Positions 23,984-58,467 of a DNA stretch of 64,000 nucleotides are shown piece after piece. The stretch covers positions 33,962-97,961 of the forward strand of contig JBAMJV010001790.1 in assembly GCA_037951105.1 (NCBI GenBank). Reading direction: 5' to 3'. The DNA comes from Echinarachnius parma. Lineage: Eukaryota > Echinodermata > Echinoidea > Clypeasteroida > Echinarachniidae. Each line of letters starts with the position of its first letter. The stretch's first letter is position 1. Below the pieces are notes generated by a model. The model saw only the letters and a list, made by a program, of their open reading frames with translations, searched no databases and was not told the origin of the DNA. The position numbers were made by a program, and so were the translations under genes.

Positions 23984-26900
23984 GTAGTGATGGTGATGAT
24001 GATGATTTTGATGTCAAGCACATCATAGAAATTAAAAATCTTGATTCTGCTTTTATTTGTGCGTGATATTTGATTATGCATACATTTGTTGTATCCTGTG
24101 ATATTGATCAAGAAATCAACATACTCTTTATGTATCAAATTCAAGAATGAGATTTTAAAAATTGTAATGTTGTCAGTAATTACATCACAGATATTAAAGA
24201 AATCTCTGTTTTATTTCTCTCACTTCACAGTCGAAAGGGACCCGTGTGACAATGTAACGTGCAACTTTGGTGCATCCTGCGTTACCGATGGCAACACATG
24301 GGTGTGTCTATGTCCTGAGATCTGTTTGGAGGTCTACAGTCCGGTCTGCGGGAGCGACGGGATGGACTATGGGAATGAGTGTGAACTGAACGTGGCCGCC
24401 TGCTCGCTGGGCAAGAACATTACCATCGTCTTTCAGGGCTCTTGCGGTGAGTTCTAGATTGATATCAATTGTTTGATATTTATTTTGTTGCATTTTATTG
24501 TCAAATTTAATGGAAATTCTTTTTTTTTCACATTGTTACAATGTATAGATATGAAACAATCATAAATGAATACAGAAAATTCAAACAAAATATTACTCAT
24601 TACTTACTGAGTATGTCATGTTAAGGTAAGTTTAATAAATTGACACTTATCTGGTATCAATACTATTATTCTAATAAAGACCTTTTTGGTTGTGCTTAGA
24701 AATAATATTCATGGAGAAATAAGTGCCCGCATAATTTTGTCATGGTTGATTGCTTTGGTTTGTTTTGATGTCATTTGGTCTTTCTCTTTATATCCGCCAT
24801 ACAGATCCATGCAGGGACATTCAGTACGAGGATGCAGTGTGTAAGCTAGATCGTTCGCGGCAGCCCGAGCCGAGCTGTGAGTTTGACTGTACGGCCGAGC
24901 TTTCCACTCCCGTTTGCGGTTCAGACGGGATGACGTACGAAAACGAGTGCGAACTTACTCGTGCGGCGTGCTTGAGCAATCTCGAAAACCAACTCATAGT
25001 GTTCACAGAAGGAGTCTGTGAAATAGGATCACGTAAGTTTATTTACTTCTTGCAATCTTGTCATTTTTGTATGGAATACTTAGATTTCCTCTAATCTTGT
25101 TTTTGCATGCAACTTTTATAAAAATTATTCTTCGACTCCAAAGATGACTAGATCATGTATAATCCAATCCTACACAGATCCGTGTGAAGATCAGATGTGC
25201 GACTTCGGACTGTGTGTCACCGATTCATCTGGCGTGCCGCAGTGCGTGTGCGTGGGTTGCCCAGATATCTACGTTCCGGTGTGCGGGAGCGACAGCGTAA
25301 CGTACAACAGTCGATGCCATCTTGATCTTGCCAGTTGCAACAAAGAGGTCCTTATCACAGTGGTGGAAGAGGGCACTTGTCGTAAGTTGTTGTACTCTTC
25401 ATTTGCATTTTTTAAATTTTAGTTTGTTGGTCGTTTGTTTGTTTGTGTGGAAGTGATGGTGTAACATACATTTGTACCACAGCCATCTTGATTTCGCTAG
25501 CTTCAAAAAGGGTTTGAAGGTTTTTGAAGAGGGTATATGCCTATTCAAAGTTGTTTTATTTATCTTTATGTGTGTGCTTGTTTATTTGTATGTTTGTTTG
25601 CGTGGAAGCGATGGTGTAACATACATTTGTATGTTTGTTTGCTTGAAACTGTTATTATACTGTACTGAATTCAAACTCTTGTCAATGTGTAAAACTTCTT
25701 AACATTTGACCTTCTTTATGCCATCCTAGAGCCCAAGAACAAGTGACAACCTGCACAACGCCAGCATGCGAAGCAACAGAAGGTGTTTTAACGCCAGTCT
25801 GAACAGACAATGTAGACTTTGTTTGTTACTTATGTTTGTTTGTTTGTGTGTGTGTGTGGAACTTTGTTATTACTAAACTAAACTAAAAACCTGTTTCAAT
25901 GTGTTTAATAAACTTCTTTACATTTGAACTCTTTCTGCCGACCCACAGCCCAAGAACAAGTGACAACCTGCACTACACCAGCGTGCGAAGCGACGGAAGG
26001 AGCGCTCACACCGGTCTGCGGAACAGATGATGTAGACTACCCAAGCCTGTGCGCTCTACAACAGGCCGCTTGCGACCAGGATAAGACTATTGAGGTCGCC
26101 TCAAATGGTTTCTGTGGTAAGTGTTGAATTCTATACTTATCTATAGGTAAAGTTTGAATTTAGATAGAGTTAGATTTTGAAGTGTTGAAGCAAGAAAATA
26201 AGTGAATTGCATTTGTGCTAAAAATTCTACCAACTATATTTTCAAAGTTCACATATTCATTTAATACACTAATGATAATTTCCAGATTGACATAAGATTA
26301 GTTACTGAGAAGTATTGATTATTGACTATTTCATTGTAAATACTTTTATGGAATAAGCCATTTAGATGAAAATATTCAATTTCTGAAATACCCCTTCCAT
26401 GTTTTTGTTCACGTAGACAAATGCAACGAGGTGGAGTGCATTCTGGGGGCATCGTGTCAGATGCGTGCCGAAGGACCCACATGTGTCTGCAGCGACCACT
26501 GCGAAATGGTCAACATGCCCGTATGCGGGTCAGATGGCGAGACATACGCCAGCGAGTGCAAACTGAACGTGATGGCCTGCACCAATCAGAAGAACATCAC
26601 GGTTGTCTCATACGGAAATTGCGGTGAGTAATCCGGGCTGCAGAGCCTTGATTCAATAATGAATAATAATTATCGATGTAGCGCTGAATGCAGGGTTGCT
26701 ATTAAACACTGTACCATTGTTTAAACCTTGTGTTCCTATGAAGTCCAAGACAGATTGTTTCAATAAAATGTATCAGAATTTGTCTTAGTTGTGTCCAACA
26801 AAGCAACTATAACCAAATCTGTCTATTAAAGAAGCTCTCTATGTCTATAGCAACCAACCTGCCTAAAGTGGCCACCAAAAGTGGTCATCTGCAGTGAAAA

Positions 26901-29900
26901 GAACTGAAATAGATCCTGTCTATAGAGGTCATATATATCAAATTAAAATAATCAATTGCCATGATAGGCATAGTATAGCGTAAAAACTAAGTATGGCTAT
27001 CAGGACTTGTGTTCAGGACTGGTGCCAAAAATACTCCGGCTCTGTTTAAAGGAGAAAACATTGTTTCCCTTTAGCTCTTTATTGTTCTTTTGTGTTTAAT
27101 TCGAGAAAGCATATTATACTAAAATTGTGATGTCTGGAATGGGTTAAATGAATGGTGTGCAAGTTTCTATTCCTAATCTCCACAGTTCTGTTTTCTGTTT
27201 GATTCAGACCTTTGTCTTGGTGCCATGTGTTAGTCCTTAACATTTTATTATTTTGAAAAGGATAAATGAATGGCATGCAAGATTCTTTCCTAATCTCTCC
27301 TTAATTCCGGTTTTCTGTTTGATTCAGACGACTGTCTTGGCGTCACGTGCCGAACCGAAGACTACAACGAGGTTTGCTACCAAGGCGTGTGCGTCTGCCA
27401 GGAGTCCTGTGCGCTTGCGCGTGCGGAAGAGGACAACGTGTGCGGAACGGACGGAAAGACCTACGACACGCTGTGTGCCATGCAAGCTGAGGCGTGCGTG
27501 AGCCAATCCAACCTCTCCGTGGAAAGCTATGGACCTTGCGAAAGTAAGCATATTTCTTTGTATGTCTGTTTTTTATTTGCTTTTGGTTTGGATTATAGCT
27601 ACAGTGACAAAAGTCTGTCCCACATTAGTCCCTCCATTAGGACAAGGATGCATGTACCAGATACTTACACAGGGCTTGACACTAGCACTTGCCGATCGCC
27701 TGGGGCAAGTAAAGATTGATGCCTGGCAAGTTAAATTCCATGAATGGTCTAGTTTGGTTGCCTGATCGGGAAAGTAGCAATTCTGTTCAACTATGAGAGA
27801 AAAATGTTAAGTTCTCCTTTTGTGTAAATCCCATCTAGAAACAAGGGAAACATTTTCCAAGCAAATCGAGCGACCTAACGCAATTCATTTTTCTTTTGTT
27901 TCCTGTATTCTATTGTAATGTGTGTTTGTGCAGTATTGCTCACAATTTTGTTAGGTTTCCTCATAAATTTAGTACAAGGCCCACCAGGTCTTATATATAT
28001 AGGCATGGGTTAGTACTTGGTTTCCATTAATTGCCACCTCAATATATTATTTTTTTTGGACAGACAACTGCCGAGGTGTGGTGTGCAATACTGAGCTGTT
28101 CAACGAGGTGTGTTACTATGGTGTGTGCGTCTGCCAGGAGTCATGCCCGACATCGCGGTCAGAAGAGGACAACGTGTGCGGAACAGACGACGAAACATAC
28201 GACACGATCTGCCACCTGAAGGCCGCGGCGTGCCGGAGCCAGTCCAACCTCACCGTCGAGGCCTATGGACCCTGCGAAAGTGAGTCAACATTTCCTTTCT
28301 AGCGTTCCACTTTCCATATTGATTTATTTGTGCATGTTTTCTTTGCGATAAGTTTAAAAGAAGAGTTGAAAGAGAACATACACTGCAAACTTCAAGGCAA
28401 TTTAACCTTATTGACCAAAGAAGCCATCTGGACATGGCTGCAAAGAGCTGTAGTCCTTTTCTGCTTTTTAAAAATATTATTTCATCATATCAATTGTTGT
28501 CTGACCTGCTATGTACAGCTGGTTTATATTAGTGAGGTGTACTTTTAATGAATTTTTTACCAAATAAATATCTTTATTTGTTGTTTTGTCTGAGGTTCTG
28601 GAAGTGGAAGCGGCACCATCCCACCAGAAATCATCCAGGTCTGCGATGACGTCTCGTGCGGCTTTGGTGGAATATGCCGCCCTCTATCTACGGAAGAGTA
28701 CCAGTGCGTCTGCAACTTCAACTGCCCGGCTGTGCGGTCGCCAGTATGCGGCACTGACAGCGTAACCTATGGCAACGATTGTCAGCGCCGTGAGGCTGCG
28801 TGCGAGCAACAGGCTAGCATTATCCTGGAGAGAGTTGGGACATGTGAAGGTATGTTTGAGAATGCGATTGAATGTGTTAGAACAAAGACACACATAAAAG
28901 AAAGAATGGCTTATTAGAGACATTTTGTTTAGCTGACTTGAATTTGCCTATATCTTTCAACTACCCGGCCATGCGATTGCCCTGTCTGCAGTACAGATGG
29001 CATAACCTAAAGGAAAAGACTATCAGTGTATTGTATTTTGTATTATCAAATTGATATTCATAAAAGAGAGATTTTTTTATTTAGCGTCCTTCCTCTAGAT
29101 ATTGAGATCGAGCTATGGGGAAATTCCCCTAGTTATGGAGGGTACATGGGAGTACTACACCTGTTTTTATTTCACTAAAAACAATGCATCTAATTATCAA
29201 TATTCATCCTTCGTATTATCTTTTAACATTGACAAGATAATGGTACATTGTTTTCATATCTCCATCTAGATATTGAGATTGAGCGGTGCGATGGGGAGAG
29301 CCCCCTAGTTAGGGAGGGGACCACGGACCTCTACACCTGTAACGAGGATAACAGGGGGGAGGATTGCCCCTCGGGCAGTTACTGCCACATACACCCCCTT
29401 GGAACATTCTCTGTCTGCTGTCCGGGTAAGGAAAACATTAACAAGAACAGTCACAATAACTGTTGTGGTATATCTTTCATGTTTTTTTTTCTAATACTTG
29501 AACTAAAGCACTAGCTGTAGACCTTTGATATAAGTCAATTTTATATCTTCGTTATTATCTTATGATAACTTTTTAATAATAGTGGTATTTCTATGATGAT
29601 ATTTTCATTGATCTTCACCAATGTAATCTAATTTTTGTGCAGAGTTAACTGTTAACATTGACTGTAGAAATCCAATGTGTAATGATCAGGAATTTAGATA
29701 GCTGCCTTGCATGTTGATCACTTTAGAGAAGATATAACATATTAATCTGCCTCAGTGGCTAAATGTAAAACAGTGCATTGACTTTTGATATAAACCGAAC
29801 ACAAAAAGTAACTTCACCCCTAAGTAATTGCCCATAATTTCATAGCCGATTATTGTTTCAAGATATCATCCTGCCACAATATTGGCACAGTTGTTATGTT

Positions 29901-32900
29901 CGATATGTGCGAAAATCAGAGACATTCATTACTTTATGGCTGAATGAGCACAGATTAAAGACAAAATGGCCCAATTCAAAAGTCACAAGGTATTGCGCGT
30001 GCCTGTACATTGTTGTGAATCCGCACATGTGGTGGAATGCATTGATCATGGTTTATGAAACAATGCTGTTTGATATTCCATTCATTTTGATTTTTTGATG
30101 GCATATGTGGTAAAATGCATTAATTGCAATTGTAAAACAGTGCATTTTTTAATTTTCCAACTCTCAATAATTTGTAATGATGATAATACTTTTGCGAATT
30201 TTGAAATATGACTATTTTTTATGTAATGTGTGCTCACTCAACCATGGATTAATGGTTACCTCTTATTTTTGCACATTGTTTTCCTAACTACCATATGGAT
30301 ATATTGGCAAGACGAAATCTTGAAACGATTCTTGGTTATGAAATTATGGGCAATAGCTTATGGGTGAAGTTACTTTTTGTGTTCGGTTTAGTTTGATGAT
30401 TTTATTAAGAGTTGTTCTTTTGGGGGCTATCATATACCAACAAATATAGAGAGAGTCAATATATGGCCTAAATTTTCAATCCTAGCAGAATCTTCTTCAG
30501 AGGCTAAGTGACGATGATACATACAAAAAATATATTATGTTGATCTGTGCTGTGAATTGATGTAAGATTGACTGATACTTTTCTTTTAATAGTGTGATTT
30601 AACAAATTTTGTTAGCTTGGCCACTGACTTTCATTATTGATAAAAACTATCTCTGGTGATTTTCCTACAGTTATAAATATAATTCTCAGAATAAAATTGA
30701 TCAAATTATTTCTTCTCTATATGATAATTTCATCCTATATATTGGTAATATTAAAGGTAAAATTATTTATACCATACATGTATATGGTTCATATAGTTTT
30801 TAGAATAATATTAAATGTAGTAGTATTTAGATGTAGTTTAGATACCATTTGATAGTTTTAATATGTTCATTCAGTTGACTAACAAGATACATTTTGGTAT
30901 TTTCTCCTCCCTTCTCTCCCCTCCTCCATAAACCTTTCTCACTCCATACTTTCCATTTTATTTCACATCATTCTGACAATCATTTTATTGTACCTATCAT
31001 TTCATTTCTGAATATTGAATATTTACGTTACCAAACTTATTCATTTTATTTATGTGTCCATTTAATCTTCCATATATTCCATTTACTAATTTTCCATTTT
31101 TGTGTTCTTCGTCTGGTTTTCTATTTGATGTTAATAAACAATCATTACACATCTTCCATTCCACTTTCATCTTTTGTTTTTTCATCTTTCATCTATTTAC
31201 CTGTTACTTAATCACGTAAACGTGTCTCTCATTCGTTCCATCATCCAACCTCTTTCATTGTTTTCTTTTCATCTTTCATCTTTTCATCTATTACTTTGAC
31301 ACTCGTGTCTTTTCTTTGTTACATCATCTGGTCCCTTCCAATCCTACTATATTTGTCTTTCTTTATCTCTCATCTTTCTATTTGTTACTTCTTCCAATCC
31401 TCTTTTATCTTTCATCTGTACTTTGCCACTGATTTGTGTCTCGTTCATTCCATCATCTGTCTTCTCTCAATCCTCATTTCATTGTCTACTAATTTTGTAC
31501 TTGTTTCATCGTCTTCTTCACAATCACTTCATTTGTCTGTCTCTTTTTACTCTTTTTCACTCTTGTAAATATCCCATTGGTTTTGACTTACCCGTCTTTC
31601 ATGCTTTTCACATTTTTTGTGCACTTTCACTCTAATTCGTTTGTGCCAATCCACACACTCCACCCCCGTCCCTTCTTGTTACTATTCTTCTTTCTCCTCC
31701 CACCATCACTCACTCTATATCATCCCTTGGATATCGACCATGCACCGCCACCCATTCGACTTGGTTACTACCACCACGTTGGCTTCTGTAGTCAACATCC
31801 CAGGTTGGTGTTTCAAATTGTTGGCAACTTTTTTCCAAAAAAAAATTGTTTTACTCTTTTGTTAACAGAGCAAAATAAGTTTTACATTTTGGGGATGCTA
31901 GATAGGCAAGTTGTGCGATAATGGTAACAGAATAAAATGGTTTTAAAGATTAATTTGAGATTCACCACGGGTGGCAAAATATTGTTTATTCATTTGGCTG
32001 CTAGATTAAAACTTGCTACTTGCGACTTTTTGAAGAAAAGCAAATTCAGATTTGTATTATTGAGATGACAAAACAAGTATTGTTTTGGAGGCTGAAGAAC
32101 TAAAAAGCATATTAAAGACAAAATTTATCCCTATTTGCTTTATAATTTTTGGCTATTTGAATACAATGACTATTAGTTTGAACAAGTTTTGTTACATGTA
32201 TATTCTCTGAAATTCTCATTTTTCTTGCCAATTTTTAATTCGAAATTGATTATGTGTTTTTGGTATTTGAAAAATTGTATTTAAAGTGCACGAAACAAGC
32301 ACTTCTTTTAAAGTGCTTGTTTTTTTAACAAGTGACTCGATATACTGTGCACTACACATTTAAAAACACATTTTGACGTGTAATTCTGAAGACAACCTAT
32401 TTCTCACTAGTTTTTCCAGTCTAGAAACTTATAATTACTCCACCGTAAAATAAGAATATAGACTATAGACATCAACATATTTTTCCTGTATAAAAACAAA
32501 ATATATTTTCTGAACAACCTTATAACATCAATCACATATTAAATGGGGAAAATAGCCAATAATTGGGCACTGGCCACAAACTAGGGTGCTCTCTAGCTCA
32601 GTTGGTTAGAGTGCTGGTCTAGCAATCATAGCTTCAAGTCCCATCGGAACCCGATTCTTTGCTTTGTTCATTTATTGAATTTATCTTGTCAGTTTTCCAT
32701 GTTAATTATTTATTACTATCAAGTATTTATTAGATATTACTTGGAATAACGATATCAACTAAATTTCATGATAGATCAGCTTGTTCAGTAGTTGTACATT
32801 AGATTTAGCTGAATCACATTATAGAGTATTAGTGATCACATTGATGAGTTAATGGTGATATTAGTGGCATGCTTAATTTAATATAATACATTACAGTATA

Positions 32901-35900
32901 ACATAACTGATACAGATTTACTGACAACTCACATTTGTTTCAAAGTGAAATAAAAGAGATCAAAATTAATATTGAAAGAAAGAAAAGAGGGAGAGAGAGA
33001 AATGAGAGATAAAAGAGAGAGAAAATGACAGAGAAAGAGGGAAGGGGAGATAGCGAGAGAGAAACAAAGAGTGCAATTGCAATCAAGTACAAATTAAATA
33101 TTGTATAATCCACTCAAAGAACCAATTATTGAATAATGAACACACTTTTGTGCAACTGCAGAATGATGGTTATTCATTTTTCTGTGATTTTCTTTTGTAT
33201 TTGTTAGTGAAGGGGTTAAGAGTCTTAATTCTAATATTAAATTCTTGTTGTTTTTTCTAGGAAATGCGACCCGCCCCTGTCTGGACTCTGAGTTTGGCTG
33301 TTGCCCTGACAACGAGACAGAGGCACTGGGAGAGAACTATGAGGGCTGTCCAAGTGAGTTTACTTTAAAGGGAGCTTATCTAGTGACATTGTCAACATCC
33401 ACAAATCTTACTTCATCTTACTCACATACCTCGTTGTATTCATATTTATAAATACCAATAGAGGCATTGAACAGGTTTTGATTTTCTGAGTTTCCCTTTA
33501 TTATAAAGATATCAAACTTTTTTCAACACTTTGTTTAATAATAGCATATTTACACTGACCATGAAAGCTGGGTATTGTATGCATAAATCTCCACCAAGTT
33601 TTGCTTTTGCTTTTGCGTTTGCTTTTTCTTACTTTTAGTTTCTTCTATTAATATGTAAAGTCCTTTCAAATATAATATGCAATTGGTAACGCTTTGAAAT
33701 TTTCTCCCACAGGTAAATGCAATTGCAACGAGCTTGGATCATATTCTAAATACTGCGAGCCAGTGACCGAACAGTGCCCGTGCAAGCCCGGTATCGGCGG
33801 CAAGAATTGCGACCGATGTGAACCCGGTTTCTACGACTTCTTAGCTTTGGAACAGAACAGCGCCGGTTGCAAACGTAAGTCTTGGATTGGAGCCTCCGTC
33901 TGGGTCTTGTGGCTGTTGTGTTACTCAGGAATAAGTGGGTTTGGGGTTCAAATATAGGTAAACGCAACAATAATTGTGACCGTTTGTGAACCAGGTTTGT
34001 CTGATTTCCTGGCATTGGAGCAGAACAGAGATGGTTGTAAACGTAAGTCTATGATATGGTTTTGTCTCTAGAGTTCCAGTGGTTTGTGCAAGGAGAATAC
34101 GGTTTCTAATTTATGTTACCCCTTAAAAATGAAACATCATGTCTGTATTTAGCTTGCGGTTGCAATGTTGGGGGATTGCAACAATTGCAACCAGATGACC
34201 AGTGCGTGCAGTTGTGTGCAAACAAAGTCAAATGTTATCTAGAAAACTGAACATTAAAGTTGTTCCTTTCTAATAAACATAAACATAACAATTAAGCATG
34301 GGTTCAAAGATAACTTCATGAGGATCTAAAATGATGTTTCTTCTTCCTCCTTTAGCATGCGGTTGCAATATTGGAGGATCGCGGCGTGACGACTGCGATC
34401 AGACGACCGGTGTGTGCAGTTGCAAGAAGGGTGTGGACGGAGATAAGTGTAACATCTGCCCAACCAGTCAGGTTATGACTCCTACTGGATGTGTGACCGG
34501 TAAGCTACAAATTAACTTTTTTTTGCCTTGTTGCCCCAAACCTGAATCCTGTTGGTCCTAAACAAAGAAAAACCATTAACAATTCTCTTATATTTGGTGG
34601 CCCAAAGCTAATTTCTACTGCCGGCTTGTGCTTATTTTCAGCATTGAGTTTTAAAGCAATATGGCTGGAATTCACAAAGGAGGTTTATGTTTTAAACTAC
34701 TATGAAATACCATTTGTAAACAAGTACAAAGTGGAAATCACATTTGCTAATGTCTACTTAAATGAAACAGCTGTAGGTGATTTTGCTAGCCAATGTTAAT
34801 TGTTAAGTGTTTCATTATTCCTGACAAAAATAGTATTATTACTTCTTTATCAAGTTTAAAACAAATTGATATATCCCATAATTAAATGGTTCTATAAATG
34901 TATATAAACCTACATGTATATGCAAATTATATTATTGTTCTATAAATGAAATTCTTTATTTGAATACAAATGTTATACAGAAGAGACAATGCCAGAAGTC
35001 AACGGTATCACGTGCGCGGAGCTGACTTGCCGTTTCTACGCGCAGTGCATGGAGGGTGCCATGCAGGGCCAAAACGCAACGTGCGTCTGCCCGAGCTTGG
35101 AGTCGTGCGCCAACGAGAACATACCCGTGTGTGGAGACAACAACATGGCGTACGGGAGCAGATGTCAGCTTGAGGTGGTTGCGTGCCGCGAACAGAAGAA
35201 TCTGATGGTGAAATATGAGGGTGCTTGTGAAAGTGAGTGTAATTGTTTAATTTGTTGTTTACTTTGTTATTAATAATAATTTCACATACATACTCAAATC
35301 AACAATCTTTATGTAAAACTTGCGCAAGTGAATCGTATTTACTTTAGTTTTTAATAAGATTTGTTTTAAGTCTTTACATGAAGCATTTTGTAGAGCATCA
35401 TTAACCTGTAGTTGGATGTTTTAGAATGTTTCAGCAAATAACTTCCATTCAATGATTATCAGTGCCTTTTGAATGTTTTAAGCGGATAAATGGGGCCCTA
35501 CAAAAGCTGTGGATCATCATCAATTATGTTATATTATTTTGTACATACTGTTTGGGACCTATATAACACTATTTTGTAATTTTACCACCAGCTACTGTGC
35601 TCACTCCAACACCGCCCCAGTCGCACTGCCAGCAGGCACAATGGGGCTGTTGCCACGACAACCAGACACTAGCAACAGGTCCCGACGGCGCCGGTTGTGA
35701 GCACTTGACCGAAGGTACCACACCCGAGGCGGGTGACACGTTCGGCGTCAGTTCTGCAATGGAGCTGCGCCTAACAACCACTATTGGTGCAATGGCTACC
35801 ACAGCTGGTGTTACTGACATGGTCACTGATGGTGTCACTGTCAGTACAACCCTTGGAGCCACTGATGGATCTTTGTCTAGTACCATGAGTGGTTCTTTGT

Positions 35901-38900
35901 CTAGTACCGTGAGTGGTTCTGAAGCCAGTACCATGAATGGTTCCACCAATGGTATGGCTGCTACAGCTAATAACATTGTTGGTTCCACGGTTGGTACCAT
36001 GGCTCCCACGGCCGGCACCACGATCGGTACAATGGCTTCCACAGCCGGTACCACGGTCGGTACAATGGCTTCCACAGCCGGTACCACGGTCGGTACAATG
36101 GCTTCCACAGCTGGTACCATGGTCAGTACAATGGCTCCCACAGCCAGTACCACGGTCAGTACAATGGGTTCTACAGCCGGTGACACGGTCGGTTCCACAG
36201 TTGGTTCCATTGCCACCACAGTGGGTACTACAGCCAGTTCCGCTACTACTACTGCTACTACTTCTGCTGCTGCTACTACCGCTACAACAAAAGTTTACTC
36301 CACCTCCTCTACCACTACCACATCTGCCACTACCACCTTTAGCACTACTGTCTCAGTGTCACCCTTTGTAACAACCGCTTATACCACAGGTGTGCATGCT
36401 TGCTTCCATTCTTTTCTTTTGATTTTGCACGTCTTTTCTTTTAAAGAAATCCATAAATGTATTTAATGTTTGTTTGCTAAGGAATGTAAAAGTGGATATT
36501 TGTTATGCCATCGTCAACAGAGCTTAAAACGTAAATTGAATGGAAACTTTTTAAGTTCCCAAAATGCCAACTAAATTTCTGCAAATTCTCATAAAATATA
36601 CTAGAGTTCGAAATTCCAGGGATTCCCTTTTGGCTGCGTATAGTCAAAGATCACTTGAGTATTAATTTCGCAAACTGTATATTTCTTCCAAATGATGGTA
36701 TTTTTTATTATAAGGCTAATTTAATGGTATAGCTTGTGTATTTTCTTGCTGAATATATTGTTCTTGCAGAAGAGCGAAAGCAGCAAATTAAAAACAAAAT
36801 TGCGTTTACAGAATTCGTGTAATTTTCAATTTGTATCCTATTTCATGTCTCTGTTAAAAGTGGACAACCTGCAATCAAAGAAATATTCACTCTTACATTC
36901 TGATTATTTTCAATAATGATTAATCTAAATATAAATCTTAATCATATATATTTTCATTTTGTGTAAACTAATTGTCCAAGAGGATAATTTCTGAAATAAT
37001 TAGATGTTTTAGAAGAACTTCTATTATTTTATGGTTAATTTGAAAATGTAAAAAATATGTCATTTCAATTATGTTACTATCACATACTGCAGGCAAATGT
37101 TAATCTGATATTCTCACATTTCTTTATTTTTAAAAAAGAGTAGAAGTTCAGTTATTGAACAAGGTGATACATAATAATATAGGAAAACATATCTTATTTT
37201 GACAATCCAAACATGACAAAATTATATATCCTTTGATAAAGGTTTAACTATACTTCTCAAACTACAGAAATGCTTGTTCTGAAGTTTTCAACTTGAACAT
37301 TCATTCAAGTGTTAATAACCATTTAGTAGAGATTAAATATGAAAGATTCCTTTTTAATAAGTTTCTCAACATCTTAGAGAGATCTCTCTTATGACAAAGT
37401 TTCCAACATAAATGCTTGATAATGTCTCAAAATATGTATCAATCACATATATCTCTTTCATGAAAAAATCCTAATTGATTTTAAAAGTTTTAAATGAAAA
37501 GGACAATATAAGATAATTGATTCAGTCTTCAACTTTTTCTGTTACAAAGAAGTGGTACAGGTTTTGTAAGTAAATGGCTTTGAATGTGTTTTTTAATGTG
37601 TTTTTTTTTCTCCTAGTAATCCTTTGTGTAAAAGTGTTTGTAATGATGTTGATTTAAGTGTTTCTATTCTTTCTCCGGTATTGCAATAATATTGTAACGA
37701 TTTTATCCAGACCTGTGTGAGACAACCTACATATTGCAAGTTTCTTTTTTGCTATGAAGATTATCAATATCTGCTCATTTATATAATATTATAATGCTTG
37801 ATACATATTTAGCATACATATAGATTTTACATTACATTGTAAGAAGCTTGAATATTATTTTTCAATTTATCGCAGCAATAAAAAAAATATTGTTTATTTA
37901 TCCATTTTCGGTCATTTATACTCTGCCAATTCAAATTTACAAAATTATTTCATTTTCAAATTTTGTTTTAATTTAATTTAGCATTCAAATCAAAACAAAA
38001 CCCAAATATTAACACTTGCAAAAAAACAAAAAGTAATCAAAATTCACATTTCAGTTTTAATTTTCTACTCCTTTGCACCCTTTATAATTTTCCTTTTGAG
38101 TTGTGCTCAATTTTTGTTTGATACATATTTTTGTTTGCATTTTCAACTTGTGAACAATTTGTGATTGAAAGTGTCATAGTGTAATATGTATAAAATGTTG
38201 AGTGCATGCAGTGCAATATATAGTTAATCTACATGTATGTGTACCATCATGATTGGAATACGTTTTAATAGTGTTCTTGCAATTGTGCACAACTTTTGTT
38301 ACCAATTGACTAACTTTTTTTGATTTTACATCTTTTTCAACTATTAAAAATAAACAAGTTAAACATTTTAAAGTCCAAAGTCAAGAAAATTGAATTAACC
38401 CTTTCAAAGTGTTTTGGTTTTGCTATAAGGTGCATTCTCCATAGAATGTAGACCAAACAATTGAGGCCAAGACCTGAAAAGCTTACTCTTCACAGAATTA
38501 TTATTTCTGTCATGATGGTACAAAAGTTTGATTATTTTTTCTTAAAAATCAGTGTGGTGGATGGAATAAAGTTTGTAGAGGAGATTGTTTGTAGAGGAAA
38601 TATGCGATTGTAAAAAAAAAAAAAAGAGTGTTTTTGCAAATGATGTAGACAAAATGCAGCGTCAACATTTTAGTAACAAAAATTAGATTCTAAGAAAAAA
38701 TATCTAATCCTGATTGCAAAGCGTATGATAAATAAGTTGTGTGATATAGATGAACCTATATTGTGTGATTTAACAATATCCCAGTCTTACTATTGTACAA
38801 TTATGCTACTTATAATAAATTTAGCAAGCCTTTTATATACGAAGTTATTTTTGCCAGAAATTTGAAGTTAAATGCTAGGCTTGTATATTACAAAAATAAA

Positions 38901-41900: not shown

Positions 41901-44900
41901 TGAATTTGTGTGAAGGAAATTTGAATTTGAATTGATTTTGTGTTTAAAATAGCATGCGGTTGCACTGGGATATTTTCGTTTTGACTTATCAGAATGCTTG
42001 GGAGTTTTCTTCTGAAGAATATCTGCTATTCCATTGTCACAAAGATGTATTATTAATGAGGTTTGGCATGGTGTGAAGACAATGGTTTTGTGGGTGTTGG
42101 TGTTTCTTTTTTGAATGGGATAAATGCATTTCTTTCATGAAAATAATGAGAGTACATGTTACGAATTGATGTTTCAAGTCGAGAAGGGTTTCAGCCACTA
42201 ATCCATGCTGAATCTGATTTATTATTAAACTGTTTAAATATCAAAAACCTTTGTAATAACCAAATCTATTCCTGATTTAGTCTTCCCTCTGATTTGCATG
42301 AGTATGAATATGAAGAAAGAGACATTTTTATTTCCACATAAAGTGTTCCTAGCTGCCCAGCAGAAACTTAATCTATTAGTTTGAAAGTACATGAGACCCT
42401 GCTATGCACCAACTATTTAATGAAGACAAATTCATTTAGATGGCTGAAAATTTATTTTTTACAAATGTAGGATTACCCTCTGGCTGAAAGTTTGACAAAT
42501 TTGTTAAACAGCATACTGATTACAGACCCCTTTCCTGCCAAAAAGAATCTAGATGCAATTTTTTTAAATAGGCTTTGTCTCAATGACAAAGAAAACTGTA
42601 GTAGAGTGTTGTTTTCACCATGAGAAAAGCTGAATAGGAAGAAGAATCTGCCAAAGTTTGAGCAAAATTTGTCAAGAATAAGAAAGTTACGAACACTTGT
42701 TCGAAATGAACAGATGACTAAAATTGTGATATCTTTCATTTATGGAATGTAAGAAACTTTATATTGTATTATTCCCTCATTATCAGCAAATTATTTTGAA
42801 AAGGGTTGTTATGGTAAAAGGCTGGATAATAGAAATATCTCATCTTAAAAATATATGGAAGGTAGTTTGTAAGGAATTGACAGTCAAAGGATAGAGGGTG
42901 ATTATTTTGTAAGCAATTGCAATTTTGGTCTGTTTGGTAAAGTTCGGACAAACTTTCAGATTTCTTGACTGTTTTTTTTAATTTTTTTATACTGATCACT
43001 CTTTTTATTCTGTAACTTATTCTGAAAACAATACTTTAACAGGCTTTCCTACCAGTTTAATTATAATTGTCTTGTAATTTATGTACTGGTGTAGATAGAT
43101 TTGTCTTGTGATGTCACTTGTCTGTTGATCACACACTCATTACATGTTTCATTTTCTTTATTTAGTCAAGATATTGCCATCAATGTTTTATCGGTACTAA
43201 AGGCACAAATGTGAGAAACAAAATGATTGCCTTTTTTTCCCTCTATTTCCATCAAAGTTTTATCGTTACCACAAGTGTTTAGAGGCACAAAGTTAGCACA
43301 TTGAAGCACAAAGTTTTTGAAATGTTGCCTAGCTGCACACGAAACATTTAATGGCAGAATTTAATATTTTACTCTTGTTTTTTATACCATGATTAAAATA
43401 TATGTGCAGTGAGCAAAGTACTTCTTTATCCACGGTTTCAAAGCTAAAAACAAATTAATACATTAGAGAGGCCATTATGTAAGATTTTTACAATTCAAAT
43501 AAAAAAAAGAAACCAATTCTTTCCTTAAATATCTTGTAATATGTCTTTTAACTCAATGCGCTATTAATTTTACATCTTGCAGATGCATTTCAGTTGTTTT
43601 TGCACAGATATTTTGCAAATGTTACCATAATTATCTTCTTTTATTGTATGCAAAGTAAAATTCTTTGCTAGCATGTTTTATCAGCATTCTTTGCAAAGCA
43701 ATATTTATTTGCGACTGATATATAGTGTTATATGTTAATGTATTCATCAACTAGATAAAATAGTGATTTTTACAGATGGCTTCATAAGCCACATTTTAAA
43801 ATCAAAATTGTAAGAAATAAGTCACCAAACGATTGGATCGTCATTTCTGTGTCTTCCCTCCTAACCCAGGTTCTTATCAACCGACCAATCAAACGGGTGA
43901 GTGCAGGTCATGTGACCCAACAGATGTCTTGGATAAGGAGAATGGTGGAAAAAATAATCAAAATTTAGAATTAAAATACCTTTCACCGGCACACTCATCT
44001 AGTTCATAAGATAAACATAACTCATCTGAGAGGAAGAAGCTGAATTCAATGACTTGAAACATATTAAACACTAATATCGCTTCATATTAATTGCATAGCC
44101 AATTTCTAACTATTTATAGATATGATTTGTAATATTCATACATATTTACAAGTACTACAAGTTATTATTTCTGTCAGCTACACTTGATCTACATCTACAT
44201 CTGCATGAAAGCTTAATTTTTATTATGTGTGTGAAAGGCATACACAGGTATTATAAATGCAGTATCTAAAGTGGAAGGTTTTTCTCTCTATTTGTTGCAT
44301 TTTGAGAGCAGGGAAATTTTATTTTTGCATTGCAAAATTTGGAAGTGAAGTGATGCCATTTTTATACATTTTATTCAGGTCCTTTGCATGGGTTTTGGCC
44401 GTTTCATTTGCACTACTGCACGAGAATGGTTTTTCTTTTTCAATTCTGCATTATATCTTTCAGCATGGCTTAGATTCATTGTTTCACTTGCCTATTTCTT
44501 TATGATTTTGCTCTATTTAGTTTTTATGTTACCACATGAAAAAGAGATATTAGAATAGTTCTTGTGTGATGTGCATGTAGACTTGGATGTTTTCCTATCT
44601 GAGAATTGATAATCCAGTCAGATTTTGTTTAACTCACAGACGGACATCTGAATTCTTTGATTATTTTTGCATAGTTCTGGGCCCCGTAACATAAACAGTT
44701 ATGATTAGTCGAATGATCAATTGATTGATCATACATTTGATTAGTTGATTATATGATTCATTGACTATCAATTGATAAGTCATATGATTAATCATACATC
44801 TGTATTGTTACAGAGCCCTGTGGGTGTATTCTGAAAACGATTATAAGTTAAAATTTATTGTATCTACGTCACTAAAATATATTTTAGCAAATCGCTATTC

Positions 44901-47900
44901 CTTAAGTACAGTTTGATATTTAGTGACATAGATATGATGTGAATAAAATAAATTTTAACTTAAAATCGTTATCAGAATACACCCCCAGGTTTTTCTATGA
45001 TATCAAATATTAGTGTTAAAAAAATGCATGTGTTGATTTCCAGACATTGCTTTATATCGAGTTTTTTTCAATTTGTAAATGTTGATATACTTATGTTGAC
45101 TAAGAGCAATGATATTGCTGAGTATAGTTTTATAATATATATATATTTCAATATCTATACATGTATATGTATTTGCTCGAAGTATGTTATGTTAACCAAT
45201 AGACATTACTAAAAACTAATAATTTCAAAATAACATTTACAAAATAAAAATATGTCAAATCAATACATGTATTCATTCATTTTATTTTGGAGTAGATGTC
45301 ATTTTTAATGTTGACCAAATTTTCATGTAGCAGTGTTAGAAAACTGCATCAGAATTAAAACCGCTCATCATAACTTCATTAATGTTTCATGTGTTTACAT
45401 CTCTTTCCTTTATATCTTTTCCCCTGTTCCGTTGAAAATTGTTAAATTAAAAAGGTCAATGCATTTTTCAAGATTTCAGATTGACACTCCAGCTGAAATG
45501 TAGAGATTTCATGTCAAAGAATATGCACCCATAATCAATTTGAAAATGAATAAATATACATGAATGATTATATGCTGCAGATGTTTTCAACCATTTTACT
45601 TAATTTCAGTTTCTCTTAAAATCATCTATTTAGTTCAGAACTCTTTTTTCCTGCTTGCATGACTTTGCTATTACAGCCATTAAGCCTATTACGTGTGAAT
45701 ATATATATATATATCTGTATACATGTATTAACTCCCCCTACTGTATTATTATATTGTGTGCGCTGCATATAAATCTGTATATTCGAAATATAAAGTTTTA
45801 AAAATGCATGTTTCATTAATACCTTTTTATACATACCCTAGAATAAGAATGGATTGTAATGACAGTTTTGGTGATCAATATAATGGACATACACTTTTGC
45901 TATACACCTTGAATCATAAATGACAGTTAAATGTATCGTACTATTGAGTAATAGATGTTAGATGTTTCTGTCTACGAACCTTTTGAAAATCATGCTGTAT
46001 TTTTATGTTAATGAGGAACAAAATGTATTTGCATACATGTACCTGGAAAGCCCAATTGAGATCAATCTTAAGATTGATTATAATAATAATCATAATAAAC
46101 TTGGATTTATATAGCGCCTTATATGATTGATCATCATCTCTAAGCACTTTACAATGATATTATATTATTGAATTTGTAGGAGAAAACTTGCTATGGATAT
46201 TTCTATAATGATGTGAAAATCTGTTTCATTAGGATCAGTTTTTATATACTATTTACATTTCATCTTGGACTAGATCACATTTATATCACTTTAACAAAGT
46301 TTGACTTTTTAATTGGTGAATATGTCGCCGTGGTAATCTATGGAACTAACTGTCATTTTATATTCATGTAATGATTTTGAGTATTAATAATTATTCAACA
46401 GGTGATATTGTATTGTTTTTGTACATATTACATGCTGATTAGTGTTATGTACGTTGTAATAATTATGTGATAACTGATTATCATTTAGGGTATAAAAAAT
46501 GAATGAACTGGTATTATACGGGAGCACATTCACTTTTTGAGCTAATCATTGTGGGGGGTAATATTTACATTCAGGAGTTCGACATACATGTAAGTGAAAT
46601 TAAGTATACTTTTACAATGCATCATGCATTGCAATATACAATGCAAGATGATGTTTTTTAGAGTATAATACTTTGAATACTCAGAGGAAGTAGACAGAAA
46701 TTTCAGGAAACACATGAAATGTAAATATTATTGATCTTATTTGACTTACAAAGTATGGCACATCTTACATTTGCAATATATACAGGATTCTGTTTGCAGA
46801 TGGTCATGATGAAGCAAGAAATTGGATTTTTGTTAGGAAGTTATCACTTGGTTATGGAACAGGTTGACGGTGGAATTTCGCTCACATCGGGGACTTAACT
46901 AACAAGATGTTGCACATCTGTCAAACATTGCACTATGGGATGGCACTGATCTTGGGTCATTAACATTCAATTTATTATCAAACATTAGCATTGTCATTTT
47001 AAGGAGTACTAAATAATGATTTACAATTATGTTATAATTTTATATATATATTTTTTTTAAATTGCATTTTAACATTTCATTAATACAGATTAGAACAAAT
47101 CCAAAGAAAGAATATGCATCAACGTATAGATAGATATAAACCTTTCTAGTAAATATTTGCTTAAAGTTTCAACAAAACATTTTAAACACTTTTAGAGTAG
47201 TGGAAGGGATCAAATAGTGTACAAAAACTTAATAGTAATACTAACTACCGTATTTGTCGGTGTATTACCCGCACTTTTTTTCAAAAAAAAAAAAAAAAAA
47301 GGGGGGTGCGGTTAATACACGACCGTATTAACCACCATTTTTTTTTTTTTTTATTTATTTTTTTTTTTTTTTTAGGGGTGCGGTTAATACACCGGAGCGG
47401 TTAATACACCGACAAATACGGTATAACTATAATAGTAATTTCAACATATTGCTTCTTATTAATTACTAGTAACACATTCAATTAAAGCTAACCAGCATGC
47501 AAACTTCAGGATTTTTATTTCATATTAGGAGTTAATCGGCTGTTTTGCAAAGTTTTAGAATTGGGATTAAACATAGTTTGACAAAGAGAAAATAATAGAA
47601 TGATATCATTAGTGATTAAGATATATAGCTGTATTGTAACCTTAGCACTAAATTTTAGTGGGCTTATTCTGTAAACCAGAAAAATTTTGACATTCATGTT
47701 GCAAAAACTATTAAAATTGGTACACATCCAGAGAAGAAATGTAAGAAAACACATAAACAGCTCACAAGTTATTTTCTTCTTCTGTTATGAACAACTTTAA
47801 TTTTCTTTAACTTTTATCTCTAATTTCCTTTTGGGTTATCTTCACGATTCCTCCACTTTTTGAAATCTCTAGTTTTCATTTTTTTTTCTTCATCTTCTCG

Positions 47901-50900
47901 ATTCCTCTTTCTAGATTCGACCTTGGCAGAGCAGATCCAGTGGTGATTCGCAGTGCTGTTGAGCTAGAACCGATGCGTTGGCACACGGTGCGAGCCTACC
48001 GCAGTCGGCGCGACGGCACCGTCAGTGTGGACGAGGAACCGGAGGTCGCCGGGTCAAGCAGTGGTGCCTCTGGCGCACTCAACCTTGGAGAGGAACTGTT
48101 CATCGGGAACGCGTTCCCACCAGCAGTGTAAGTCTGCAGTTATTTCATATTGGTTCAACATAGTAGTATTAATTACAACATCTAAAGAAGATGTTAAAAT
48201 GCTTTTAATATGTTACTACTCATCAGGGGAGGGGTGCTTAGGGGGAGGTGTCTTATTTTTTACTAATTACACAAATATTCACGTTGGGTACATACAAATA
48301 ATACTAAAATGCATATTCATAATTATAGAATCTGCATTGAATACATTTGATTTAATTGTTGGGCAATATTAGTTTGTGATAGATACATGTATCTTTCTTG
48401 AATAATTTTTGAAGGTTTCTTCAAAACAAAACAGGCTCATTATACAGCCATTGCTATCTAGATAAGATATGTATTTTTTTTTTTTTCATACATTTTTTAC
48501 AATTTTGCCGTTCACTTAATCTCTTCCACCACAGCGGTCTTGAGCTTGTGAACGCATCCAATGGATTTATCGGCTGCATCAGGAATGTTGAAGTCAACAG
48601 TAAAGTTTTGGATCTATCATCGACAAACTTGGCCATTGAGTACGGTGCTAATGTTGGCGAGTGTGGACACGATCCGTGCAAGGAACTCCCCTGCCTCAAC
48701 AATGGAACGTGCGACCCTGTCAATGCGGAGACATACAGATGTGTTTGCATGGAACCCTACCTGGGTGAGTCTATTACTGGGAATGTGGAAGGGGGTTGAA
48801 CAAGAGGGACATTGTGAGATAATGAATATAATACAATTTTATCATAATTACCCAAAATAATGCTTTGGTATATAATGTTCAGTTTTACAGTCTTTGCTCT
48901 CATTCCTGTTGTCAGTTTTTATTTGTGACATTAATTTGATATAATTGTTTCCGTCTTGTTCTTTGCCTAGGTCCCAAATGCGGTGACGTCCTGGCGGACC
49001 AGTGCGAGGGTAACATGTGCTACGTGGGGTCATCGTGCGTGCCCCTCCCAGAGGGAGGCTACAGGTGCGACTGTCAAGAGGGGTGGAAGGGAGAGCTGTG
49101 TGGTGAAGGTAAGAAGGATAATCAGGAGGAGGAGGAGAAGGAAGATAGTTGTTATGATGTTGATGGTGATGTTGGTTATGGTGGTGATGATAATGATGAT
49201 GATGATAAGCAGGAGGAGAATGGTGGTATTATGATGATGAGGCAGAGGAGAAGGAGGAGGAGGATAAAGATGGTGATAGTGGTGATGATCATGATCCTTC
49301 TACTGATGTTGGTGGGTGGTGATGATACTGATTGTAAAGACAGTGATGATAATGGTGGTGAAGATGATGAAGATGACAATGATGATGATAGTGGTGTTGG
49401 TGATGATGATGGTGTTGTGATGTGGATGAAGATAACACTGATGATGGTGTTGCTAATGATGATGATGTGATGTTGATGAAGACGACAATGATGATGATGA
49501 TAATTTAAGTAATTATTTTCAATTAACCTTTCCTTTTGGATCATAGAAATACCGCCCGACTGCGTACCCACCTTCAATGTTGCAGACACGTGCATACCTG
49601 CTTTCAGTGGCGATTCATACATCGAGCACCCATCCCTCCGATTGCCGCGACAGTTTGTGATCACGGTGGAGTTTTATCCTACGTCGACTGACGGCATGGT
49701 ATTCTACAACGGGCAGAAGGACACTGGGAATGGGGACTTTGTTTCACTCAACCTTCATGCCGGATATCTTGAGTTTAGATTCGACTTGGGAAGGGGCATT
49801 GCAGATATTAGGTAATTTAACCTTGTCTTTTATTGATTTCCGATTCACGTTAGTATGGAAGACTAGATTCTAACAGACTTTATTTTATTGCTATGAATTT
49901 GAATTAGTAGTCATCATTTCCATTCAAATATGCATGTGTTGATGCCAATGATTGTTGTGCAATGTTTTGTTTTCCTCTGGAAAAAAAAATCATTTTTGTT
50001 TAGATTTATTTAATGTTGTGATCCTTACATTGTATGATTTTCTGATTATTAAAAGAAACAAATTTCTTAAATCAATGCATCTCAAAGTAAATTCTAAACA
50101 ATTTCTTATCAATTTCCTCAATATTTTTACAGGAGTTCTAAAGTAGTTGAACTGAACGAGTGGCATGTAGTCCGAGTCATGAGGCGAGACTCGGGCAGTA
50201 TCCAGGGAGAGATGATCCTAGACAATCTGGAACCCGTCTTTGGCTCTTCACCAGTAAGTTTTCCTTCATTAATTTTTTTAACCCGCTAAATATTGACTTA
50301 TTCTTAAGCCCGGGTAAATAGGCTTTCTGCTTATCCATTACATGTACATTAAAGGGATAGTTGAGTTTTGGTATAGATGGCGCTACACAAAATAATTTGT
50401 TGATGAGATAATGAAAAATTTAAAAGAGCATACAATTTTAAAGACAGACTAAACTTAATTTTATCGAAATCGGTTCAGAAATGGCTGAAATATCCATAAA
50501 CATAACCATTTGTAATAATTGTGGGGCCCCACAATTATTCGACAATTTTGAACCAGCCGTTAATTTTATTTTTGTTATGCTTCGTCTTTTTAAAAATTTA
50601 CAAAAGTGGTTTTTAAATAGTTGTTGATCCGATTTAAATTTTGTATTCATTTCGAACATGGTGGAGTTATTACTATTAGTTTGTAATGTAATGGTGCAGG
50701 TTTTGGTTACTAAAATTCAGTTTTACCAAAACTGTACTCTCTTTTAATACCAAAACTCAACTATCCCTTTAAGTCTGTGCTCTAAGCTGTTCTCCTACAA
50801 GGAGACTTTTGCTGTTTCACAGCATGAAACACAATATTAGACAATCTGGAACCTGTGTTTGGTTCTTCACCTGTAAGTTTGCATACTTTGCACCCTTTGG

Positions 50901-53900
50901 GGGGCGGGGCATTCATTCAGTCCTTTGTTCATTTCTGTAACCCCTCTAATACCAACACATGAGAAAGCTTGATATATTGGCTTTTTGCTCATACAGTTTG
51001 TGCTCTTAATCATTAATCAATTCTATTTATTTGTTACTGTGCATTGGGCAAGATCTGGAGTGTGGAAACACAATTGTACTTGTAAAAAGTGTTCCGTAAT
51101 GTAACAGGACATACAAAATTGTATTCTCTTAATAATGATAGCATAAGTAGGTGAGGTGTCTGAACATGTGAACACATGTCAAATTAAATTGTACCAGTAG
51201 TGAATACATGTTTTGTATTTCTCTTTTCTCAGCCCGGTGCCTCCGAGCTAAATCTGAACAGGAATCTGTTTATCGGAGGATCGAGAAATTACAACCAACT
51301 CTCGAGGAAAGCGAGCATCACCGATGGGTTCGATGGTGCTATAAGAACGGTAAGAATTATGAAGTTAATTTCTTCTTTATTTAGGGGTTGTGTTAGGTAG
51401 CTTCTGACTTGCAGCAAATCATTCCATGAACCCTTTATAATAAAGACGTTTTTATTATTTCAAGATGTAAACGTCAATATAATTTTGACAAAAAGTATTT
51501 TGATTGTATTGTAGGGACCCGGTTAACTCTATGGGAATGACAATGTCGGGGATGAAATGGGTTAACATTTTCAAAATATCTTTTTGCAGTTTGTTGTGGA
51601 TGGAGTGACTCTAGACTGGCCAGAATCAGCCATTGCTTCAGTCAACGTTGATGTATTTACACAAGATACCATGGATACAATAGCTACAACAGATGCGAGT
51701 AAAAGTAAGTAACATTTGATTATTACGATTTTTTATTTGTAATAGTAGTATTGGCTCATATCAAATTTTGAGGAATCTTTATTTAGCTTGCTATGAAAAA
51801 AACAATATATTGATGTACAAGTTGCATGTTAAACTGAAAGATAAATTCAGATTTTGACTTGTATTTTGAATACTGCCCATATACTTTTGAGTCGTTATTA
51901 AAGTACTTTTCATGATTTTTGTTTTTCATCTCAAAAGATTTTAAGTCCTGAGATCCTTTAACAACTTCATCTGATCACATGTCCATTTAAGAACTCATAT
52001 CTACACAATTAATTTAATCAAATATTATTTAAATCACTATGAGAAAGGCCTTTATTTGCTAGTTTCTGCCAACTTTGTCAGACTGTCCCAGCTAAGAATT
52101 TGAATTGAATAATTTATTACAGCAATGAAGTCCACAATGGCATCAACGAGGCGAGCCGAGGCCCCCATCCTGGCAATGACAACAACACTGCCGTCCACTC
52201 CCCCGATGACCACCCCTCCAGTGGTGGTCGTCGATGTCAATGCCCCAGTCAGGTTCGACGGACAAACTAGCATTCAGTACTACAATGGTATTACAAGATC
52301 GTAAGTAACTACATTTTCCTATTGTTGTATATTTATTTGTTGAATCTCAAATCCATTTTTGTGCAATATAGAGCAAAAAAATATGCATCCCTTTACCCCA
52401 TATTTTATCTTTAAGGTTTGTAGTTATGTTAATGATGTATTAAATAATTCACAATGCAATGAGAAATAGAGATTGATTTGCAGTTTGATGTCTTATGCTA
52501 AGTGAATGCATTAGCAGTAAAGTGATTTTTATGTCCATTTTTTAATTCACTCTTATAGTTTTGTTTCTTTCAAAACTGACCAACCAAACAAAGCCCTTTT
52601 GTCTAACTAATGATTTTGTATATTTCTTTTAATATTTTGCACCCATATTCTTGCCAAAACTTTTCTCTCATACTTTTCTTTCTTCTCCTTTAAACTCTGC
52701 AGGCAACGAGCATTACGCAACAACATTATACAACTATCTTTCAAAACCGACCAACTCAACGGAGCCATCCTCTGGAACGGCGTTGGAAATAAAGACTTCC
52801 AGGCCGTCGGGGTATCAGAGGGATTCGCAGAGTTCGCTTACAATTTAGGAAAGGGGATAACGCGGATACGATCTGCAAAGCGAGTTGACGATAATAAATG
52901 GCATACTGTTGTAGTTACTAGGTACGTTCAAATATTATTAAAATTGAAACAAATATTCTTCCATAAATGTGACACTCAAAACATTTGGGGAAAGAGACAT
53001 CTGCAAGGTAAAAAAAAAAAGGGTTGACTGCCTTTGAATTTCTTCAAGAATAATATTTTGGGATGTGATTATGTCATTATTACAGGTTATATTCAATAAA
53101 GAAATATGATTACAATTTAAAAAAATCACCTACCCGTTCAGGATTGATGATTTTGCTATAACATGTATTCTCCATAGACCCATGCCCAAGTGTTTTGGGG
53201 ACCAGTCCTGAATGGGTTAATTTCTCCATGAATAATATTTAAAAGGACTTGATAATTGTTCACTTGATCAATCTTCAGATAAAACAGTTTTGTAAATATA
53301 TCCTACAAAAAATGCCTACCATAGTCCCACTCAGCCATATCTATGTCGATGTTTTTTGGTGCAAATAATCTCCTGAAAATGTTTGAAATTTTGTTGTACA
53401 GGTCCGCACCAACCTAATGTACCATCCGGGACAAATTTAAAACAATGATTATACAAGTTTTATTTTTACCAACGGAAATTTAATTGAGGCTTCATTAAAA
53501 GTTCCTTTTTTGGGGTTGTAGAGAGAAGTTGCCAGCTCTGCCATTGCACGATATTATCTTTAAAGTTATCTCACTTTGACTTTTCTACCAACAGAAATTT
53601 AATTGCGGCTTCATTACAAGTCGACGACAGCTTGCCGGTGATGGGGCAAGCTAAGGCCGGCGCGTCACAGCTCGATACAGATGGACAACTATTTCTAGGT
53701 AAGTCAGATCAATTCAATCGACCAGGACCCATGTTCATCAAAGCCTGCTAGCTTAATTCCGTGCTAAGTGCATTTCAAATGGTACACTTAAGTGTGCTAC
53801 GAACAGTCTACAACTAGGGTTATCTGGTTTAGCCTTTGCTACCTACTAAGTTAACCCTAGTTAGCAACCAATAGATTGTGTGTTTAATACATAGCCACAT

Positions 53901-54680: not shown

Positions 54681-55090
54681 GATGTTTCCCTTCGCGACTT
54701 CCGCGTTTCACCCGCCGTGAATACGCTTGTTCAAAGACTCTTTTACTATTTATATGTATAAAATGAGCATTATATTTACTTACCAAGACACTATTACGAA
54801 ATTGGAAGACATTTTTTTTTCTTCTTTTTTCTTTTTTTTTTTTTTTTTTTTTTAGGAAATGAGGACTCATTTTATTTTGATGGGGGACAAATTTTTTAAA
54901 AGTGCAAAAAAAATGTAAAAATATGTTTTTAAAAATGAGTGAAAAAAAGAGAGGTAGTTTTTAATCTAATCTGTGACCAAATGAGCAGCATTTTATATTT
55001 TCTTGAGATCGTATACATGTATCTGATGAGTATTGTTATAGCACTCGCAGTTCTACTGGTATTGTTACATGTGGCATGGTTATACTCTTT

Positions 55091-55096
55091 AATAAA
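55091..55096 (+). promoter_or_regulatory. Candidate polyadenylation signal, proximal
   Basis: AATAAA 411 bp after the agrin stop. It is plausible as a short 3' UTR end, but such hexamers are common in AT-rich DNA. Confidence 0.4.
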
Positions 55097-56690: not shown

Positions 56691-56696
56691 AATAAA
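56691..56696 (+). promoter_or_regulatory. Candidate polyadenylation signal, distal
   Basis: AATAAA followed within 20 bp by a T-rich segment, a usual cleavage-site context, 2 kb after the stop. Confidence 0.4.
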
Positions 56697-57168: not shown

Positions 57169-57244
57169 TTAACCCGTTTACGGGAACGGGTGGGCTATGT
57201 ACAAAGTCTATGTGGATATCAGAATCTCGCAGTGAACGGGTTAA
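57169..57244. mobile_element. piggyBac-like MITE, family B
   Basis: TTAA|CCCGTTTACGGGAACGG, GTGGGCTATGTACAAAGTCT, CTCGCAGTGAACGGG|TTAA; 76 bp with both TTAA sites intact. Confidence 0.82.
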
Positions 57245-58357: not shown

Positions 58358-58467
58358 AGACTTGCCAACCGTTCCGTTTTTAACGGATTTGTCCCGTTTT
58401 TTAAGTTTTTATAGCCACAAAAAACGGAACGTTCCGATTTTGAAAAAAAAAAAAAAAAAAAAAAATC

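Follow-up and report, generated by a model that had tools for sequence, protein, structure and literature searches.

Decayed Partial Exon Copies in the Agrin Gene of Echinarachnius parma and Their Probable Origin in Short Tandem Duplications

Introduction

Short local duplications that take along partial exons and splice sites have been described in vertebrates (PMC2671141), and several described systems come close to the subject of this study, a set of decayed partial exon copies ("ghost exons", or ghosts) in and around the agrin gene of the echinoid Echinarachnius parma. The DNA analysed is a stretch of 64,000 nucleotides (GenBank assembly GCA_037951105.1, contig JBAMJV010001790.1, positions 33,962 to 97,961 of the forward strand), hereafter called the window and numbered from its first letter. 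As far as the passages of these sources considered here go, the doublets of Thomas et al. (2004, via PMC2671141) are likewise short, local, low in copy number and mostly tandem or close, whereas the agrin ghosts are 7–33% diverged and are seen through exon copies. The repair-mediated duplications of Pace et al. (2009; PMC2671141) have a similar length, are local and include partial exons and splice sites, but pairs within 50 bp are omitted from that collection as tandem, and the best agrin cases abut. Small tandem duplications arising at breaks by Pol alpha-primase fill-in (Schimmel et al., 2021; PMC8355091) share the direct tandem copies; the common human class consists of insertions <100 bp, whereas the units found here are mostly longer. 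A survey of exon-to-intron matches across 20 eukaryote genomes has recovered the same match classes, which can reveal degenerate or unannotated exons, in more genes than full-exon duplications; it is a survey tool, however, and the passages of it considered here make no mention of agrin. In the described intron gain by tandem genomic duplication (PMC4974935), the duplication also takes place within a gene, but a new intron arises there, whereas in agrin existing introns receive dead exon parts. Ghost formation is a known kind of process.

The agrin ghosts are, with good confidence, what is left of germline tandem duplications of an ordinary sort, ∼100–240 bp long, that have spanned one exon edge; the evidence does not support a cause peculiar to this gene or to its exons. 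This suggests that no gene-specific cause has to be assumed for ghost exons, as short tandem duplications that keep arising would be enough together with a constrained parent that keeps the remnants recognisable. Literature searches (most subscription journals being outside their reach) have brought up no description of such a pattern in agrin, and the original prediction, made from the letters of the window, knew of none either.

Partial Copies of Agrin Exons

The agrin gene (18160–54680, plus strand) has been traced through 29 coding exons (E1–E29) by a splice-phase-consistent open reading frame (ORF) and by Pfam domains, and the joined ORF comprises 2019 codons with consistent phases and no internal stops. 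Each exon has been compared by Smith-Waterman alignment with its flanking 1.5 kb, in which all exons had been masked, and the scores have been judged against 200 dinucleotide shuffles, against cross controls (19–24 neighbourhoods of distant exons each) and against the inverted orientation. Nine of the 29 exons beat all shuffles and all cross controls, with scores (shuffle maxima in brackets) of 148 (89) for E5, 287 (93) for E6, 156 (97) for E10, 183 (87) for E11, 222 (87) for E13, 172 (105) for E14, 168 (88) for E23, 112 (91) for E27, which is the weakest among them, and 117 (83) for E28. The nine ghosts score 112–287 against their own exon and at most 88 against the next-best one, and they are therefore not cross-hits among the related follistatin exons. 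The other 20 exons have no copy above all shuffles within the flanking 1.5 kb, the nearest misses being E12, E1 and E3, whose scores are reached by 4, 15 and 18 of the 200 shuffles. Inverted copies score 48–87 across the 29 exons, each below its own shuffle maximum. The exon-like intronic segments of the original prediction, whose exon numbering agrees with the present map, are real by this test; two of them have come out differently from how they had been read. The copy of exon 8 is at chance level on the exon alone (22 exon columns, score 58, null mean 58.8), whereas a query that also takes in the intron and the acceptor reaches 274, the best of its shuffles being 99. The second copy of exon 5 does exist, but its parent is the first ghost of that exon and not the exon itself.

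The ghosts, all on the plus strand, lie on both sides of their parents, as had been claimed: those of E6, E8, E11, E14, E27 and E28 upstream, and those of E5, E10, E13 and E23 downstream. Upstream of E6, a ghost at 25615–25818 repeats the intron tail, the acceptor and the 5′ part of the exon (parent 25824–26038, unit ∼209 bp, spacer 5 bp by alignment or 20 bp by unbounded blastn), and that of E8 (27114–27229, parent 27230–27349, unit 116 bp) repeats intron tail, acceptor and the first 22 bp, with a spacer of 0 by alignment, where the parent range had been set to begin at 27230, or of 30 bp by unbounded blastn. The ghosts of E11 (29040–29164, parent 29213–29340, offset 173 bp) and E14 (34094–34267, core 34148–34214, parent 34295–34483, offset ∼201 bp) consist of acceptor and 5′ part, that of E27 (52545–52607, parent within 52703–52778, offset ∼171 bp) of a 5′ part, and that of E28 (53436–53502, parent 53559–53621, offset 119–123 bp) of the acceptor region and a 5′ part, with the acceptor AG replaced by CG. 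Downstream of its parent, the E13 ghost (33957–34105, core 33968–34050, parent 33790–33942, offset ∼167 bp) carries a 3′ part with the donor, and the E23 ghost (50786–51006, parent unit from 50163) a 3′ part, the donor and the intron start. In the E10 ghost (28945–29074, parent 28705–28836, offset 240 bp), 84 of 125 columns are identical and the donor has become unrecognisable; the alignment of the E11 ghost overlaps its end. The E5 ghost (25444–25587, parent 25280–25419, offset ∼164 bp) contains the 3′ part and the donor region, with 70/96 exon columns and 29/34 intron columns identical, and has itself been re-duplicated: a segment at 25586–25648 copies 25431–25507 at an offset of 155 bp and matches the first ghost at 93% over 44 bp in blastn, while taken alone it shows no preference between E5 (score 67) and E2 (66). 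One further copy, absent from the original prediction, lies at 17964–18061 and repeats 18065–18166, that is, the upstream region and the start codon of E1, which reads ATA in the copy (unit ∼101 bp, spacer 3 bp by alignment or 5 by blastn); its score in the boundary test described below is 225 against a shuffle maximum of 112. The exon-linked offsets (n = 12, one for each of 11 exons and one for the re-duplicated ghost) extend from 101 to 240 bp with a median of 169 bp. Another candidate near the E8 donor (116 against a shuffle maximum of 111) consists of loose alignments in two places and has been taken as chance.

Tandem Arrangement

An abutting tandem unit has been shown for E1, E6, E8 and, once an insert of 424 bp is left out, for E23, where some unit ends are bounded by ranges set in the analysis (the parent of E8 from 27230, and E23 on both sides). 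For E6, E8 and E23, none of 500 shuffles reaches the score of the intron half. The two E23 copies are 619 bp apart because the insert sits in the first of them; without it the unit measures ∼200 bp and the first unit ends within one base of the second. The insert (50349–50772, without assigned strand, both TTAA ends counted) has inverted ends of 26 bp, and as the second copy of the unit does not contain it, the insertion would have come after the duplication and the element appears to be the younger of the two. Stretches related to it have been seen within 59985–60527 (minus strand) and at 10286–10405.

For the remaining exons, several results weigh against a tandem origin. The intron halves are at chance level for E10 (436 of 500 shuffles reach the score), E14 (210) and E27 (486), and only slightly above the shuffle mean for E5 (78), E11 (66), E13 (60) and E28 (51), and neither the junction nor the intron halves are demonstrable in these seven cases. 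The spacers of E5, E10, E11, E13, E14 and E28 likewise give no clear match to the predicted tandem extension, the best being those of E10 and E28, reached by 15 and 23 of 300 shuffles. Loose alignments in the spacers of E5, E13 and E27 had been considered as tandem support and are not borne out by the intron-half shuffles. Recurrent short tandem duplication with decay, as originally proposed, holds with regard to local duplication and decay, while the tandem step has been shown in four exon cases and may apply to the other seven.

These seven cases leave room for a repair-mediated duplication out of tandem, in which a break would have taken up neighbouring DNA and inserted it some way off by synthesis-dependent strand annealing, and the sizes fit, as proximal human events have a mean of 162 and a median of 147 bp (PMC2671141, in the part considered) against the median of 169 bp here (n = 12). 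The copies of E1, E6, E8 and E23, however, abut or nearly do so, and pairs as close as these are the ones that Pace et al. (PMC2671141) had set aside as tandem. Capture can also invert its product, as in an exon copy given in the same source, whereas none of the 29 agrin exons has an inverted ghost. Capture at a distance is thus regarded as unlikely, and short tandem duplication remains the preferred origin.

Decay of the Ghosts

Parent and ghost differ by 7–33% in the exon pairs, and the differences have a clear direction. Among the 703 exon columns aligned in 11 pairs, 107 have G or C in the parent and A or T in the ghost, and 24 have the opposite (p ∼1e-13); the GC fraction falls from 0.53 in the parental exon parts to 0.42 in the ghosts, toward the AT-rich surroundings. 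In the functional pair E8/E9 the corresponding differences are balanced (21 versus 20). Differences amount to 37% at codon position 3 and 17% at positions 1 and 2, a pattern which fits a constrained parent but does not discriminate; it has been dropped as proof of neutral decay, as nearly the same is seen between the functional exons E8 and E9. A stronger conservation of the exon part relative to the intron part has not been clearly seen within pairs.

Stops lie in or near the parental frame of the ghosts except in those of E27, of which 16 codons are open, and E14, which is open for 31 codons from the acceptor and has one frame-shifting indel relative to its parent. In none of the alignments has a ghost been found to hold both parental splice sites. 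Of the losses that had been ascribed to the copies (frame, a splice site or cysteine codons), loss of frame applies to most of them, the open stretches of E27 and E14 being the exceptions. These stretches, together with plausible acceptors in the ghosts of E6, E8, E11 and E14 and donors in those of E13 and E23, are what would be expected if ghosts still served as alternative or regulatory exons. Judged from the letters, such use appears highly improbable in view of the stops or frame shifts in the other ghosts, the directional loss of GC, and the lack of any ghost with both parental splice sites in the alignments to the parents (which did not include a scan for cryptic sites). Under tandem duplication no function of the ghosts is needed, because the geometry of the duplication accounts for their form. 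Gene prediction should be carried out with caution at such loci, as remnants that retain a splice site may be called exons.

Agrin Exons and the Surrounding DNA

The generality of the pattern has been judged on the non-coding DNA of the window only. In the boundary test, queries of 160 bp centred on exon boundaries or on random non-coding points have been searched for a copy within 600 bp. Of 57 exon boundaries, 5 have been set aside for their excess of masked bases, and of 300 control points 1 that fell outside the three regions; overlaps among the control points and with ghosts are possible. Simple repeats have been masked in the tile and boundary tests and their pairs excluded from the blastn counts, and E16 has been excluded from the tile tests. 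Significant direct copies are present at 11 of 52 exon boundaries and at 57 of 299 non-coding points (Fisher p 0.71), where the 11 still include the chance-like copy near the E8 donor and do not include E10; the donors of E10, E25 and E26 are above all shuffles and below the stricter threshold of this test. Inverted copies have been found at 1/52 boundaries and 29/299 points. By region, direct copies occur at 28/85 points in the 5′ flank, 20/170 in the agrin introns and 9/44 in the 3′ flank, and exon boundaries are not significantly different from introns (p 0.11) or from the 5′ flank (p 0.17). Self-comparison of the window by blastn has yielded 28 direct and 4 inverted pairs at offsets <350 bp, versus 16 direct and 19 inverted pairs at ≥5 kb (p 0.0003, the rows overlapping within arrays and not being independent), and 19 of the 28 short-offset direct pairs have no exon overlap of at least 10 bp. 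Abutting non-coding pairs (overlapping in blastn) have been located in the 5′ flank at 7055/7209, 8638/8750 and 15719/15916. Nine non-exon pairs, picked by eye and leaving out three shorter ones (25, 55 and 70 bp), have a median offset of 162 bp, with two of 395 and 655 bp. The pattern had been put forward as a property of one gene, and this is not supported: within the window, with non-coding DNA as the control, it is equally common elsewhere.

The other results that count against ordinary background duplication are found in the tile tests. The raw rate is 8/28 for exons against 13/125 for agrin-intron tiles (p 0.028), or 9/28 against 14/125 at 1.5 kb; direct and inverted copies of intron tiles are nearly equal (13 versus 11); and the rate is uneven along the window, with 27/87 tiles in the 5′ flank, 1/27 at 54681–60999 and 6/11 at 61000–64000. 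When the exon copies are subjected to simulated decay (17% additional substitutions and 3% indels), 3.4 of the 9 ghosts are still detectable, and the exon rate drops to ∼3.0/28, compared with 13/125 for the intron tiles. Since the excess vanishes in this way, exons look like better recorders of duplication rather than preferred targets, although the roughness of the decay model must be held against this account of the excess.

The raw excess of exons over introns is also what a special hotspot in agrin or its exons would produce, driven by a feature of the gene or by selection favouring new modules, and to it may be added the clustering of copies, e.g., in the E5–E6 interval with its three ghosts, and the duplication of a whole module in E8/E9. 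Against such a hotspot, the 5′ flank, which lies outside the coding gene, is as rich as the exons (27/87 tiles, against 8/28), no enrichment appears in the boundary test, ghosts are carried alike by follistatin, laminin-EGF and LamG exons, and the units are too short for a module. A hotspot is, on this evidence, very unlikely, and background tandem duplication with unequal persistence of its traces is preferred.

Further repeats have been observed in the window. A near-identical tandem duplication of 70 bp (54195–54340, 98.7%) with a 3-base repeat at its edges lies in the last intron and is probably young, and a tandem repeat with a 55-bp unit (98% identity) is found at 58246. Intron 11 contains an inverted repeat of 199 bp (29791–30390, 75% identity) with arms ∼200 bp apart, and two local arrays of direct repeats occupy 61093–62733. 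The edges of three non-exon pairs have been read by eye, without statistics, as ATT at 54195, one base at 58246 and TCTT at 22873; the exon pairs are too old for a microhomology reading. As two of the non-exon tandem pairs are near identical (54195/54265 and the unit at 58246), an assembly or haplotype artefact might be suspected as the source of the copies in general. The divergence of the exon ghosts and the later splitting of one unit (E23) by an insert leave this a practically negligible probability.

Proposed Origin

Where a tandem duplication crosses an acceptor, a truncated exon and its acceptor come to lie upstream of the complete exon; where it crosses a donor, a truncated exon and its donor come to lie downstream. 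As the mRNA can stay unchanged in both cases, the spare exon part is free to decay, and the same geometry explains why copies lie on both sides of the parents and keep at most one parental splice site. The ghosts of E5, E10, E11, E13, E14, E27 and E28 may have had the same origin, with intron halves that would have decayed in both copies, while duplications inside exons have presumably been mostly purged by selection. At the molecular level, either replication slippage or the repair of breaks by fill-in synthesis may have been at work. Exons are conspicuous among the duplicated stretches because selection holds the parent copy, so that the two copies drift apart less quickly and old duplications can still be recognised, and exon remnants could serve as a simple measure of how often small duplications have arisen in the background over long periods. 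It is conceivable, though we consider it quite unlikely, that the lineage prefers a duplication unit of ∼100–240 bp and that exons act as slow-decaying recorders of the long-term rate in any gene-rich genome. Lengths of ∼100–240 bp are close to the nucleosome repeat or to the length of Okazaki fragments.

Agrin Modules and Whole-Exon Duplication

The agrin product matches Kazal_2 eleven times, Laminin_G_1 three times, and EGF_laminin and EGF twice each, and no match to NtA or SEA is listed for it (Pfam, E up to 0.001). The ghosts had been suggested to be the raw process behind the gain of follistatin modules. Offsets of 101–240 bp barely hold, or do not hold, a follistatin exon (168–255 bp for E2–E10) together with both splice regions, and the role of the ghosts in module gain is therefore at most indirect. 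The sole module gain of the whole-exon kind visible in this gene is the in-frame duplication of E8 and E9 (27262–28301, plus strand), in which 165/211 exon columns are identical and whose offset of 735 bp belongs to a different size class from the ghosts. In the Thr/Ser-rich exon 16, 33-bp repeats at 35981–36193, with a unit that is a multiple of three, represent tandem duplication tolerated within an exon. The long intron between E18 and E19, within the first LamG domain, contains a candidate micro-exon at 43870–43896, which has 27 bases in frame with an acceptor and a donor judged good by eye and could be an alternatively spliced insert.

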